Assembly (NCBI GenBank): GCA_903938485.1
Contig: CAJADF010000104.1
Coordinates: 1-49,821, forward strand
From: an uncultured Methylococcaceae bacterium
GTDB taxonomy: Bacteria; Pseudomonadota; Gammaproteobacteria; Methylococcales; Methylomonadaceae
Length of the DNA: 49,821 nucleotides
Reading direction: 5' to 3'
The notes under the pieces were generated by a model that saw only the letters and a list, made by a program, of their open reading frames with translations, was not told the origin of the DNA and made no database searches. Shown here piece after piece: positions 5,624-23,579 of the stretch; position 1 is the first letter of the stretch, and every line of letters begins with the position of its first letter. Made by a program: the position numbers and the translations under genes.

Positions 5624-7203
5624 TATTGTTCCTCTTTTGTAAATACGGGTTCTATGGTGCCAGGTAAGATTCGGGCATCAAAGTTATCTTTTAAAACTTG
5701 TATGTTGGAGTCTACATTGATAGCTTCAACAGAAGTCTGTTGTTGGTTTTCGCGTTCTCGAATTATTTGTACGGCGGGTGTTTCTATAGTCGTTTTTGTT
5801 GATGTGATATTTAATTTTAACTGGGGTGATTTAGTATAGTGACGTAAGGCTGTTTGTAATGAGTCTTGCGCTTTGGTACTTATAATATGGTTGGGATTGA
5901 TTTTTAAAGTACAGGTATTATCGTCAAGTGATTCAAGAGCGCAATGACTCGCGAATTCCTTTGTCATGCCCACTAGTTTCATAGCAGAAATCATGGATAC
6001 CCATGAGGTATCAGTTGTATTATGTTGCTTAGGAGTTACAAATGTTTTAGTTGCTTCAAAAGGATAAAGTGCTTCTTTTGAGGCAGATTTGGGTATTTCG
6101 ACAACAGTTGGCGCATTTTTTTTGGTAGGTTTAAAAGTTAACATGCGTAACATAACCATTTCTAATCCGCTACGGGGATCCGGTGCTAATGGTAGGTCTT
6201 TTTGGCCCAATATACCAATTTGATAGAATAGTTGAATGTCTTCTGTTGATAATTGTTTTGCTAAATTATCAATCAGTTCTTTATTAAAATTATCATCGAT
6301 AAAATTAGGAATATGTTGTGATAGGGCTGTACGATGTAATACTTGTATTATTTGTTGCAGTACATCTTTAAAGTTAGCCGACAAGCTTTCGAGTTCAGCT
6401 ATTTTATTCATTATAGCTTTAGCATCATTATTAGCTAGTGCTTGCAGTATTTCCTCAATAGGCTGAATAGCAACAGTGCCCAGCATTGTATTTACATCAC
6501 TGATTTTAATTATACCGTTGCCGTATACAATAGCTTGATCTAATAAGCTTAATCCATCTCGCATACTTCCATCTGCTGCACGGGATAGTGATTTAAGTGC
6601 TGCTGGTTCATAATCTAATTTCTCTTGAGTTAGGATTAACTCCATTTGTGAAAAAATTTGACTGGGGGATAGTTGTTTTAAATTAAATTGTAAACAACGG
6701 GATAAGATAGTGACTGGTATCTTTTGAGGGTCAGTTGTCGCTAATAAAAATTTTACATGCTCGGGTGGTTCTTCTAGTGTCTTTAATAGCGCATTAAAGC
6801 TGTGTCCAGATAGCATGTGCACTTCATCGATTATATAGACTTTGTACTTTCCTTGATTTGGTGCGTATTGTACGTTATCGAGTAAATCTCGGGTATCTTC
6901 TACCTTAGAGCGTGATGCAGCGTCTACTTCAATTAGATCTAAAAAACGACCTTCATTTATATCCATGCATGTGACGCAGGTATCACAAGGATTGTTGTCT
7001 TGAAGATTCTCGCAATTAATAGCCTTCGCTAAAATTCTGGCAAGAGTTGTTTTGCCAACACCGCGAGTTCCGGTAAATAAATAAGCGTGATGCAGTCTGT
7101 TATGTTGCAATCCATTAATTAATGATTGGACAACATGCTCTTGACCGACGACTTCTTTGAAATTATGTGGACGCCACTTTCTGGCGAGAACCTGGTAATT
7201 CAT
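5623..7203 (-). CDS. dnaX: DNA polymerase III subunits tau/gamma
   Basis: Clamp-loader ATPase of the replicative polymerase. The ATG at 7203 ([12 protein letters not shown]) gives the standard N terminus and 526 aa; an in-frame extension to 7266 would run into the SRP RNA and is rejected. Walker A is GTRGVGKT (45-52), the zinc site Cys64/73/76/79, Walker B DEVH (126-129) and the arginine-finger motif SRC (168-170). Collar domain III ends near residue 357 (MLRMLTFKP). A run of eight A follows directly at 6116-6123. Slippage there would end translation after 19 more codons and give a gamma-like form of about 382 aa. The C-terminal half is diverged, as usual for tau. It lies just downstream of ffs. 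Confidence 0.96.
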
Positions 7204-7236: not shown

Positions 7237-7346
7237 GGTAACCGAATCAGCCACATCCCGGCACACGAATCTGCTGCTACCGTTGCTTCCTTCCGGACCT
7301 GGCGGGGTTTACAGCGTATCGTTGCGAGAGGACCAACTCGATCACC
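7237..7346 (-). ncRNA. ffs: 4.5S (SRP) RNA
   Basis: The minus strand carries the bacterial SRP RNA core: CAGGTCCGGAAGGAAGCA (the GGAA tetraloop and symmetric-loop region), preceded by GTTGGTCCTCTCGCAACG and followed by CGTGTGCCGGGATGT, all close to E. coli 4.5S RNA. The 5' segment GGTGATCGAG pairs, with G-U pairs, to the 3' segment TTCGGTTACC, which sets the approximate ends and a length near 110 nt. Exact ends are inferred. The RNA binds Ffh for co-translational membrane targeting. It sits between spoT and dnaX, 33 nt ahead of the dnaX start. Confidence 0.95.
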
Positions 7347-19895: not shown

Positions 19896-19923
19896 TTGCA
19901 TTGTTGCAATATCCCCCTATAAT
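19896..19923 (+). promoter_or_regulatory. Candidate promoter for the B12 riboswitch-btuB transcript
   Basis: A perfect -10 box TATAAT (19918-19923) with TTGCAT 16 nt upstream (19896-19901). Transcription would begin near 19930, just at the 5' edge of the riboswitch. Confidence 0.65.
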
Positions 19924-19930
19924 ACGATCT

Positions 19931-20119
19931 GCTTTCAGGTTCCATTCGATAGTTAAGTCTAATGGTTAAACGGGAAGTCGGTAAGGTTTAATACCAAATC
20001 CGACGCTGCCCCCGCAACGGTATATAAGTAAAGAAGCATCGTTACGCCACTGTGTATTACATGGGAAGGTGATGGTTCAGGTTAACGCCACTTATAAGCC
20101 CGGAGACCGGCCCGTCAGC
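19931..20119 (+). promoter_or_regulatory. Cobalamin (AdoCbl-type) riboswitch
   Basis: The classic core is all visible in order: AAACGGGAAGTCGGT (19968-19982), ACGCTGCCCCCGCAACGGTA (20003-20022), GCCACTG followed by GGGAAGGTGATGG, and the B12 box AAGCCCGGAGACCGGCCC (20096-20113). It senses adenosylcobalamin or another cobalamin form and normally switches off expression of the gene downstream, here the B12 receptor btuB. The control level is probably translation, because a hairpin that covers the btuB ribosome site lies between the aptamer and the start codon and no T-run terminator is seen. Confidence 0.96.
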
Positions 20120-20185
20120 ATATTCGCAACAGCGGAGGGCTGTCTGGCGGAGTGAATGCGTACGTTCGTGCGCTTCATCTTCTAT

Positions 20186-20237
20186 TGTCCTCTGTTGGTT
20201 ATACCTAAAACTCTATGCGCGGGCGGCGCAGAGGATA
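20186..20237 (+). promoter_or_regulatory. Hairpin sequestering the btuB ribosome binding site
   Basis: TGTCCTCTG (20186-20194) pairs with CAGAGGATA (20229-20237), nine pairs with one G-U. The 3' arm holds the Shine-Dalgarno GAGGA (20231-20235) of the btuB ATG at 20240. This is a plausible off-state expression platform of the riboswitch. Confidence 0.55.
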
Positions 20238-20239
20238 CT

Positions 20240-22075
20240 ATGCAAAAAATATTAATTAGCTCATTTTTACTTGTGGGTTTTAGTAACCCGGCACAAGCCC
20301 AAGATAACACCTCCGATAATGCTTTAGAATTGCCGAATATGGTAGTAACAGCGACTAGAACTGATATTGAGTCAAAAGAACTATCATCAGCAACCACCGT
20401 TTACACACGAAAAGATATTGAGCGTTTGCAAGTTAAAACGGTTCCCGAGTTATTGAATGGCACTAGTGGTGTCGATATGATACAAAATGGCGGTTATGGA
20501 CAGCCGACTTCAACTTTTATTCGGGGTACTAATTCTACAGATTTATTGGTTTTGATAGATGGCATTAGAGTAGGGGCGGTTTCTTCTGGAACGACTGCTT
20601 TTGAATTTATACCCATTGATCAAATTGAAAAAATAGAAATCGTAAAAGGGCCCCAATCAAGCTTATATGGTTCAGAAGCCTTAGGTGGGGTCATTCACAT
20701 TTATACCCGTAAAGGGAGTGAAACCGAAACGGCGCATGTTAACTTGGATACGGGTGGAGGATCTTATGACACAGCTAAAGGTTCTGGATCGATTAATGGT
20801 AAATTTGGCAATAATTGGTATAACTTGGGGGCGTCCCATATAAATAGCCAAGGCTTTAATGCGACGACTCCTGCTAACATGTCATATGCGTTAAGCAAAG
20901 ATGGTTATGAAAATACCGGTATTAATGCTCATATTGGGCATTATTTCGATAACAAATCAGAAGTTGAAGCTTCATTTATAAGGTCAGAAGGCATCAATAA
21001 CTACAATGGTTGGAATGGAGCGGGTAATGCCGGCATTAAGGGTCAATTTGTTAATCAAGCCGTTAGCGGTTCGGGCAGTATATATTTACTGGATAACTGG
21101 CGTTCAACTTTGCGTTTAGGTCAAAGTATTGATAATAGAGATGATATTTACACGGGCTATTTTAATACCTCGCGTTGGAGCACAAGTTGGTTGAATGATA
21201 TTAAATTATCATCTGATCATAAATTAATAGTGGGTGCGGATTATCACTTAGATAATTTAGAGAGTGATACGTCTTTTACTAAGCACTCTCGCTATGATGC
21301 CGGGATATTTTCTGAGTTACATAGTCAGTTATTAAAAGACTATTTTATGACAGCCACGCTAAGAGGGGATACCAATCAGACCTTTGGAGAATTCTTAACG
21401 GGTAATATTGGGGCTCGCTATAACTGGGCGCATGGTATTAGTTTGCTAGCCAATTTTGGTAATGGTTTTAGAGCACCGACCTTTAATGAACTTTATTACC
21501 CACCCATTCCTGCTTACGGCATGATTAACGGTAATCCGAATCTTAAACCTGAGCAATCGACATCGGTTGAAGCAGGGATTACAGGTGATCATTCGTGGGG
21601 TAATTGGGAGTTGAGGGCTTATCATACTGAGATTACGGATTTAATAACTTCTAATCCTCCCGCTTACCAATCAATCAACATTGGTAAGGCACAAATAGAT
21701 GGTTTAGAAACAATCACATCAACTCAAATTCTGGGATGGAATGCAAAATTAAACCTTAATTTACTGAACCCTATCAATAAAGTCGATAATTCGCGATTAA
21801 TTGGGCGGGCTGACAAAACCTTGTCATTTGATTTATCAAGAGCATTAGGTAAGTTTGATGTGGGGACTTATGTCGTTGCTCAGGGCGATAGACATTACAC
21901 AGCTGCAGACACCTCTGGGTACGTAACGGTTGATTTACGATCGGCTTATCATATTAATAATAACTGGATGTTAAACGCTAAGCTTAGCAATGTGTTAGAT
22001 CAGCAATATCAAACGGTGTACGCTTATAATACGATGGGTAGAAACTTTTTCTTATCAATCCATTATAATAACTAA
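20240..22075 (+). CDS. btuB: TonB-dependent vitamin B12 receptor BtuB
   Basis: Outer-membrane active importer of cobalamins, 611 aa from the ATG at 20240, which has GAGGA six nt ahead and a clean signal peptide (MQKILISSFLLVGFSNPAQA, cut before QDN). The longer frame from 20156 starts inside the riboswitch leader and is rejected. A TonB box (LPNMVVTAT, 31-39) is followed by a plug domain with LLVLIDGIRVG, KIEIVKGPQSSLYGSEALGG and VIHIYTRKG, then a 22-strand type barrel with FGNGFRAPTFNELYYP. It ends NYFLSI-type HYNN, without the usual terminal aromatic residue. The riboswitch and the permease downstream make cobalamin the likely substrate. Confidence 0.93.
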   Translation: MQKILISSFLLVGFSNPAQAQDNTSDNALELPNMVVTATRTDIESKELSSATTVYTRKDIERLQVKTVPELLNGTSGVDMIQNGGYGQPTSTFIRGTNSTDLLVLIDGIRVGAVSSGTTAFEFIPIDQIEKIEIVKGPQSSLYGSEALGGVIHIYTRKGSETETAHVNLDTGGGSYDTAKGSGSINGKFGNNWYNLGASHINSQGFNATTPANMSYALSKDGYENTGINAHIGHYFDNKSEVEASFIRSEGINNYNGWNGAGNAGIKGQFVNQAVSGSGSIYLLDNWRSTLRLGQSIDNRDDIYTGYFNTSRWSTSWLNDIKLSSDHKLIVGADYHLDNLESDTSFTKHSRYDAGIFSELHSQLLKDYFMTATLRGDTNQTFGEFLTGNIGARYNWAHGISLLANFGNGFRAPTFNELYYPPIPAYGMINGNPNLKPEQSTSVEAGITGDHSWGNWELRAYHTEITDLITSNPPAYQSINIGKAQIDGLETITSTQILGWNAKLNLNLLNPINKVDNSRLIGRADKTLSFDLSRALGKFDVGTYVVAQGDRHYTAADTSGYVTVDLRSAYHINNNWMLNAKLSNVLDQQYQTVYAYNTMGRNFFLSIHYNN

Positions 22076-22125
22076 AATCTGTGCCAGAACGGCATGATAC
22101 TTTAACTTACTCTCTCACTATAAAT

Positions 22126-22695
22126 ATGAATATAAAACAAGGGTTGAAGCCTGAAAGTTTACCTATCCTTCTGATTACTTTGATGGTTATGACTCGTTTT
22201 CACCATTTTGGTGACGTACTACATTTACCTGATGCCTCATTAGCCGTATTTTTCTTTGCGGGCTTTTATCGTAAAAAAGCGTTATTAGGGTTCTTATTAG
22301 GCTTAGCGGCTTTAATCGATTTTATAGCGATTAAAAATGGCACCAGTGGTTGGTGTGTGACTCCAGCTTATGTATTTTTAATTCCTACTTATGCAACCCT
22401 ATGGTTTGCAGGTCGCATTGCCGCTCGTTTTAATACGGGAAAAGTGAGTGACTTAGTAAAATCACTGGGCTTATTAATGCTATCAGCCAGTATGGCCTTT
22501 GTTATCTCAAACGCTAGTTTCTATGCGTTCTCTGGTAAATTTGATGCCTTAGCAATGGCAGATTATGTGGCGGAGATTCAACAGTACTTTATGCCGTATG
22601 TCGGATCAACTTTAGTATACGGAATAGTGGGATGGGCAGTTGTTAAATTGTTTAAAGCATTACCTGCGTTTTTATCAAATCGTAAAGCGGTTTAA
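22126..22695 (+). CDS. btuM: BtuM-like vitamin B12 transporter (solitary ECF S-component homologue)
   Basis: 189-aa protein of about six membrane segments, directly after btuB (about 50 nt) in the riboswitch-controlled transcript. The segment GTSGWCVTPAYVFLIPTYATLW holds a single Cys77 with Tyr82 five residues on. This matches what I recall of BtuM of Thiobacillus denitrificans, where a conserved Cys binds the cobalt of B12 and a Tyr lies five residues later. DASLAVFFFAGFYRKK near residue 36 is another conserved-looking stretch. BtuM works alone, without the ECF ATPases, which would fit the lack of btuCD here. A GTG at 22081 gives a 15-residue longer product and cannot be excluded. Confidence 0.75.
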   Translation: MNIKQGLKPESLPILLITLMVMTRFHHFGDVLHLPDASLAVFFFAGFYRKKALLGFLLGLAALIDFIAIKNGTSGWCVTPAYVFLIPTYATLWFAGRIAARFNTGKVSDLVKSLGLLMLSASMAFVISNASFYAFSGKFDALAMADYVAEIQQYFMPYVGSTLVYGIVGWAVVKLFKALPAFLSNRKAV

Positions 22696-22720
22696 TTTTA
22701 TTAAATAGCCGCCATAAAAA

Positions 22721-22742
22721 ATGGGCAGAAATCTCTGCCCAT
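22721..22742 (-). terminator. Terminator hairpin oriented to the minus strand
   Basis: ATGGGCAGA (22721-22729) and TCTGCCCAT (22734-22742) form a 9-bp perfect stem with a 4-nt loop. T-rich sequence follows only on the minus strand (TTTTTTATGG), so as an intrinsic terminator it points left, toward btuM. On plus it could only act weakly as the btuM 3' end. Confidence 0.6.
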
Positions 22743-22800
22743 TCATATCAGACCGATTTAAGGTCAATCAGATTAAACAACCAACTTTCTAATCGGTTCA

Positions 22801-23161: not shown

Positions 23162-23278
23162 ATGCCTAAAGCTTCGCCTTTGAGTATCATCAATAATAAT
23201 CACCTTGTGTATAATGCTCTCATTTGTCTTGTTGGAGCATTCCTTGACTACTTTTCCAGAAAGAACGTGTTCGATTGA
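23162..23278 (+). CDS. Possible 38-aa hydrophobic peptide
   Basis: ATG 23162 to TGA 23278, with GAGG four nt and AGGAG thirteen nt ahead of the ATG. The peptide has a polar start (MPKASPLSIINNNH) and a hydrophobic centre (LVYNALICLVGAFLDYF) with a basic end (SRKN). It overlaps the start of the ASCH gene in another frame, so it might act as a leader that couples translation, be a small membrane peptide, or be chance. Not recognised. Confidence 0.3.
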   Translation: MPKASPLSIINNNHLVYNALICLVGAFLDYFSRKNVFD

Positions 23279-23579
23279 ACGCTTGGTAACGCATCCTAAA
23301 TTAGTGGCCTCTACGTTGGCGGGTACTAAAACTCAACAGCGTCGTGATGGGGTCTATGGTTTTCCGGGTGAAACGTTTGTCTTAGAAGGGATAACATTTG
23401 TGGTGACTGATTTATCACGTCAACGCATTGGGGATATGACGGATGAGCACGCGCATGCAGAGGGATATCCTAATCTAGAAGTGTATAAGCAAATTATTTT
23501 AAGTATGCATGCGGGCATGACATGGAACCCAGACAGTTTAGTATGGGTGCATAGTTTTGCTAAACAAGAGGATGCTTAA
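23244..23579 (+). CDS. ASCH/PUA-fold domain protein
   Basis: Small protein that reads as an ASCH domain: FPERTCSIERLVTHPKLVASTL (about 4-25), GTKTQQRRDGVYGFPGETF, FVVTDLSRQRIGDMTDEHAHAEGYP and a C-terminal VWVHSF strand. ASCH folds resemble PUA RNA-binding domains and are proposed to bind RNA; the partner is unknown. The start is a choice: TTG 23244 has GGAG six nt upstream and gives an N terminus (MTTFPERTCS) that fits the domain; ATG 23214 and TTG 23205 lack good ribosome sites. The stop overlaps the convergent epimerase stop by 4 bp. Confidence 0.75.
   Translation: MTTFPERTCSIERLVTHPKLVASTLAGTKTQQRRDGVYGFPGETFVLEGITFVVTDLSRQRIGDMTDEHAHAEGYPNLEVYKQIILSMHAGMTWNPDSLVWVHSFAKQEDA

Follow-up and report, generated by a model that had tools for sequence, protein, structure and literature searches.

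A cobalamin riboswitch and btuB upstream of a predicted solitary BtuM transporter gene in a gammaproteobacterial methanotroph

Organisation of the btuB-btuM locus

The window analysed here, a stretch of 49,821 nucleotides from an uncultured Methylococcaceae bacterium (contig CAJADF010000104.1), carries a cobalamin riboswitch, a receptor gene and a gene for a small membrane protein in the same orientation, together with two hairpins. The features are as follows.

19920–20129, + strand: cobalamin riboswitch aptamer (RF00174; 103.8 bits, E 5.3e-25, gathering score 31.5)
20217–20229, + strand: conserved hairpin GCGCGGGCGGCGC, directly before the ribosome-binding site AGAGGA (20230–20235)
20240–22075, + strand: btuB-type TonB-dependent receptor, 611 aa from the ATG at 20240 (TIGR01779, 2.5e-140; Pfam Plug and barrel over their cut-offs)
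22126–22695, + strand: btuM, predicted solitary S-component-fold cobalamin transporter, 189 aa (Cys77, Tyr82, His27, Asp65)
22720–22743, + strand: strong hairpin without a T run, 3' of btuM (-15.8 kcal/mol, z -3.34)

The aptamer is the single RF00174 match across the whole draft genome, and its score bears out the riboswitch that a sequence-only reading had placed ahead of both genes. The same reading took the membrane protein gene to follow btuB, and TIGR01779 is the best family of the upstream product, though at 468.9 bits it falls below the model cut-off of 599.7. The btuB start is likely at 20240 and not at 20156, the position given by the ORF lister, because a signal-peptide-like sequence begins at 20240. 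The btuB stop codon and the btuM start are separated by a 51-nt interval (22075 to 22126), in which the terminator scan listed no intrinsic terminator. The btuM frame is open from its ATG to a stop at 22693–22695, and this ATG is preferred over an in-frame GTG at 22081 because many homologues start at the same Met (MNIK...). The 189-residue translation contains, as had been read, a single cysteine, Cys77, within GWCVTPAY, with a tyrosine five residues further on at position 82. Comparisons with loci L060, L062 and L058 (70–75% identity) give dN/dS values for btuM of about 0.11, 0.21 and 0.13 respectively; in two of these comparisons the synonymous sites are close to saturation. No model in Pfam-A or NCBIfam matches the BtuM protein, which represents an annotation gap.

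The hairpin 3' of btuM is absent from the terminator-scan list and is a possible end of the operon. A promoter scan returned four promoter-like sites against a shuffle average of 11.2. Further downstream there is a small ORF (23205–23579, + strand) that has no Pfam match and resembles the ORF following btuM in two related loci (L061 and L094). Elsewhere in the window, a bacterial small SRP RNA lies at 7242–7338 on the minus strand (71.3 bits).

A hairpin is a recurrent element of the leader. The motif GCGYGGGCGGCGC is present no more than 330 nt from the aptamer motif in 57 of the 64 relatives' loci that have the aptamer motif, and in none of the shuffled controls; in 42 loci the hairpin is followed by a Shine-Dalgarno-like stretch and then an ATG. 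In the window, GCGCGGGCGGCGC is probably the switching element acting on btuB translation, and it may be the kissing-loop partner of the aptamer, by analogy with known cobalamin riboswitches. The recurrence of the GCGYGGGCGGCGC hairpin suggests that btuB translation is controlled by the loop-loop type of switch known from such riboswitches. Folding the full 361-nt leader to its energy minimum gives a structure barely better than those of shuffled sequences (z -1.65), and we therefore base the switching mechanism on the conserved hairpin and not on the full-leader fold.

Relationship of the gene product to BtuM

Among solved structures, the best sequence match to the btuM product is BtuM in entries 8c7p and 8ovv (E 4.9e-24, query residues 13–168), and a profile of 49 relatives matches the same entries with an E value of 4e-38. 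The PDB titles describe 'Tagless BtuM in complex with cyanocobalamin / hydroxycobalamin', and a literature search returned no paper on either entry. We infer that 8c7p is the Thiobacillus denitrificans protein because its chain numbering reproduces H28, D67, C80, Y85 and R153 of PMC6072759. In the alignment Cys77 corresponds to Cys80, Tyr82 to Tyr85, His27 to H28 and Asp65 to D67, and the Cys80/Tyr85 spacing given in the sequence-only reading is correct both by this alignment and by PMC6072759. The pocket residue R153 is replaced by Glu150, and we do not treat R153 as defining BtuM because it is not essential for binding or decyanation (PMC6072759).

An AlphaFold2 model built from 49 sequences (mean pLDDT 75.4, pTM 0.75) matches the six-helix S-component-like fold, with low confidence (pLDDT <50) for residues 1–10, 28–34 and 75–79, the last of these being the Cys77 loop. 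It superimposes on 8c7p with a Z score of 17.8 over 171 residues and an rmsd of 2.8 Å (Foldseek E 6.7e-06), and identity in the structural alignments is about 28–33%. The next fifteen entries are all ECF S-components with Z scores of 8.3–10.8, and the first unrelated row has a Z score of 6.4. The modelling that had been proposed as a check thus agrees with BtuM in overall fold and leaves the geometry of the Cys77 loop unconfirmed, because of the low pLDDT of residues 75–79. A chance resemblance confined to the Cys...Tyr motif was considered and is rejected, as the whole chain aligns to BtuM. On sequence matches and predicted structure, the ORF at 22126–22695 is btuM, a new member of an already described family, and the earlier suggestion of a BtuM-like protein is upheld by the sequence search, the profile and the fold comparison alike.

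Most members of the order Methylococcales that we sampled encode a homologue. Of 201 genomes drawn evenly across the order, 141 have a BtuM homologue and 60 have none; the 141 are covered by 143 loci, which include the window, with one genome counted twice and one having two copies. A second, overlapping set of named loci comprises the best 80 of 259 relatives. Cys77, whose lack of conservation would have spoken against the assignment, is invariant in these overlapping sets (143/143 and 80/80), as are Tyr82 and Asp65. His27 is present in 141 of the 143 order loci and in 79 of the 80 named loci, the eightieth having a gap there, and the position of Arg153 is occupied by Arg in 81 of 143. Among the named entries of the genome collection, its nearest relatives are MAGs of Methylococcaceae and Methylococcales, Crenothrix and Methylobacter, and the organism is therefore a gammaproteobacterial methanotroph.

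We also considered whether the window btuM is a mobile copy. No relative was found in the phage collection or in viral contigs, and three plasmid records, in Croceicoccus and Novosphingobium, have homologues at about 33–34% identity; neither the phage and viral searches nor these plasmid homologues suggest a mobile origin. Two alphaproteobacterial plasmid homologues (about 33–34% identity) also retain the Cys and Tyr. In the annotated sphingomonad plasmids (L243 and L244) the homologues lie beside cobO and are labelled 'hypothetical protein', part of the same annotation gap.

The gene order is similar in most of the relatives. A btuB gene is directly upstream of btuM (match end less than 1.5 kb away on the same strand) in 71 of the 80 named loci, and in 65 of these the distance is 243 nt or less. 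The nine other loci include two with almost no upstream sequence and two with less than 1.7 kb. Two loci (L061 and L094; btuM at 6001–6567) have no btuB in 6 kb upstream, where acetyltransferase-like and nitrilase-like ORFs were recognised by eye. A riboswitch-like motif, scored as a text pattern and not by an Rfam search, is upstream in 63 of 80.

Cobalamin genes in the genome and alternative importers

The draft genome consists of 2.51 Mb in 134 contigs and is 99.95% complete. It has no match to FecCD (BtuC-type) or Peripla_BP_2 (BtuF-type), each of which is found in 13 of 14 control genomes, or to CbiQ (EcfT), CobS or MetE, each found in 10 of the 14. The sequence-only reading had reported no btuC, btuD or btuF in the window, and FecCD and Peripla_BP_2 are unmatched in the whole draft genome too; the genome search that it proposed finds no family of the BtuC, BtuF or EcfT type. 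The three outcomes that it had named as refuting, concerning the fold, the conservation of Cys77 and a BtuCDF system elsewhere, were thus each checked, and none was observed. A BtuCDF system elsewhere in the genome is rejected on the lack of FecCD and Peripla_BP_2 matches, and a hidden ECF module on the lack of a CbiQ match. There is one BtuR, encoded on a different contig from btuM. The B12-binding domain has three matches. Two exceed the cut-off: a MerR-type regulator and MetH, which is truncated where its contig ends and of which the C-terminal 703 aa are present. A radical-SAM/UPF0004 protein gives the remaining match, below the cut-off. The MerR-type regulator (L036 2115–3104, contig G000:C131) has two B12-binding domains and is possibly a B12-based light sensor or a B12 sensor.

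This gene content is shared within the genus: BtuM is found in 15 of 16 genomes, and FecCD and Peripla_BP_2 are found in none of the 16, a set that includes a one-contig genome (G179). Across the order, BtuM is not always the sole candidate importer, because 34 of the 141 BtuM genomes also have FecCD over the cut-off, with Peripla_BP_2 over the cut-off too. FecCD is less frequent in genomes with BtuM (34/141) than in those without (27/60; Fisher p 0.004, uncorrected for kinship), a weak hint of replacement, since FecCD also serves siderophore systems. For the organism of the window, these results are most simply read as those of a MetH-dependent cell, obliged to import B12 and doing so via BtuB and BtuM; it is probably a B12 auxotroph importing through BtuM.

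The suggestion that BtuM could be the whole inner-membrane step of B12 uptake is likely, but it has to be set against a BacA/ABCD4-type ABC protein that the genome also encodes. This is the main remaining rival importer: a 564-aa protein with an ABC_membrane_2 (PF06472) match (contig G000:C87; L242 1408–3102), which could be the main inner-membrane B12 importer, with BtuM playing a minor or mainly decyanating part. Its best solved relative is 6tqe (E 1.4e-59), whose chain sequence is common to 6tqe and 6tqf, 6TQF being the mycobacterial cobalamin transporter BacA (PMC10960864), and the lysosomal cobalamin transporter ABCD4 also matches it (E 1.5e-29). However, the only cobalamin riboswitch detected in the genome precedes btuB-btuM and not the ABC gene, and no B12 gene is evident among the ORFs of the 3.8 kb locus in which the ABC gene lies. 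A PF06472 member is present in the E. coli control genome as well, and E. coli without btuF and btuC imports no B12 (PMC6072759). Moreover, T. denitrificans BtuM mediates uptake of hydroxocobalamin too, and is there not just a decyanase (PMC6072759). We therefore regard a leading role for the ABC protein as unlikely.

Two further explanations fare worse. BtuM could act like an ordinary S-component, as its predicted fold would allow, and pass B12 to an ATP-driven partner, either an ECF module that escaped detection or some other, but CbiQ/EcfT is unmatched in this genome and matched in 10 of 14 controls, and BtuM functions in E. coli, a host stated to have no ECF module (PMC6072759), so that we consider such a partner very improbable. 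It also seems hardly credible here that the protein, for all its BtuM fold and its pocket for corrinoids, serves mainly to take up a different corrinoid, for instance cobinamide: T. denitrificans BtuM does bind cobinamide (PMC6072759), and in some relatives (L097 and L123) the neighbours of btuM look, by eye, like genes for nucleotide-loop assembly, but no CobS match was found in the genome, so that the cell could probably not turn cobinamide into cobalamin.

Proposed uptake route and comparison with known systems

We consider it highly probable that the riboswitch controls btuB-btuM and that BtuM takes B12 across the inner membrane of this Methylobacter-like methanotroph without an ECF module. 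The mechanism is transferred by homology from T. denitrificans BtuM, the only characterised member of the family that we found in the literature. With that protein, E. coli cells that lack btuF, btuC and metE show B12-dependent growth, which the C80S change abolishes; its Cys80 binds cobalt with the cobalamin base-off, and cyanide is removed (PMC6072759). The H28A, Y85L and R153A variants retain binding and decyanation, and because Y85L behaves like wild type, Tyr85 is conserved yet dispensable for these activities (PMC6072759). Toppling with facilitated diffusion, followed by trapping by BtuR, is its authors' hypothesis (PMC6072759).

By analogy, BtuB would bring B12 through the outer membrane, and BtuM would bind it on the periplasmic side with Cys77 holding the cobalt, probably base-off and with the loss of any cyanide. 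Passage over the inner membrane would then need no ECF module and would probably proceed by toppling and facilitated diffusion. Conversion to adenosylcobalamin by BtuR would trap the vitamin, and methionine would be made by MetH with B12, since no MetE was found. Transport, cobalt ligation, decyanation, trapping, auxotrophy and the role of BtuM as the main or only inner-membrane route are all inferred in this scheme. We would give even chances to a broader proposal, that this branch of the Methylococcales methanotrophs depends for growth on external B12 through MetH alone, with a single ATP-free protein of 189 aa as the whole inner-membrane step, one Cys both stripping and carrying the B12, and trapping uncoupled from the transport operon, which has no adjacent btuR. 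If so, the oxidation of methane in lakes by these cells would depend on their neighbours' B12 through one gene.

The window protein resembles T. denitrificans BtuM (PMC6072759; 8c7p, 8ovv) in size, predicted S-component fold and the equivalents of Cys80, Tyr85, His28 and Asp67, as well as in its btuB context and a genome without EcfT; it departs from it in having Glu150 for Arg153, btuR elsewhere and an identity of about 28–33%. Proximity to btuB was the basis of the original BtuM prediction, and in most BtuM hosts btuM is near btuR (PMC6072759). The methanotroph order differs in this respect: in none of the 80 named loci does a btuR like that of the window genome lie near btuM, in flanks of up to 6 kb on either side (less at contig ends). 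In Azotobacter chroococcum, too, a cobalamin riboswitch precedes btuB and btuM, but there the two genes belong to a salvage cluster of twelve genes for the final AdoCbl steps (PMC4465626), whereas the window pair has no other cobalamin genes nearby.

Two comparisons can be made with other S-components. The biotin S-component BioY, when solitary, is another example of the fold functioning without an ECF module (PMC6072759), although its substrate differs and it is mostly found with such a module. RibU, FolT, ThiT and PanT are alike in fold (Z 8.3–10.8), with low sequence identity to the window protein, and require the module for transport. The BtuM family, its mechanism and the riboswitch-btuB-btuM order are already known, the last from Azotobacter (PMC4465626). 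A literature search in which subscription journals were thinly covered found no study of BtuM in methanotrophs, and BtuM does not occur in the main text of PMC2667541 (BMC Genomics 2009). Few vitamin transporters are believed to operate with no energising partner, and BtuM is among them. A clean methanotroph case, with one riboswitch, one receptor, one permease and no BtuC-, BtuF- or EcfT-type match, makes its sufficiency directly testable; it also suggests a B12 dependence in bacteria that limit methane release.

A different arrangement, not found in the genome of the window, is seen in three of the 80 named loci, where a BtuF-like protein is encoded directly after btuM (L098 6579–7373, L103 6585–7373 and L104 6084–6884). 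The L098 protein, the one of the three scanned, is a Pfam Peripla_BP_2 member with no evident signal peptide by hydropathy, and such proteins might be cytosolic B12 sinks that help BtuM. In the order sample, Peripla_BP_2 is present without FecCD in eight of the BtuM genomes.
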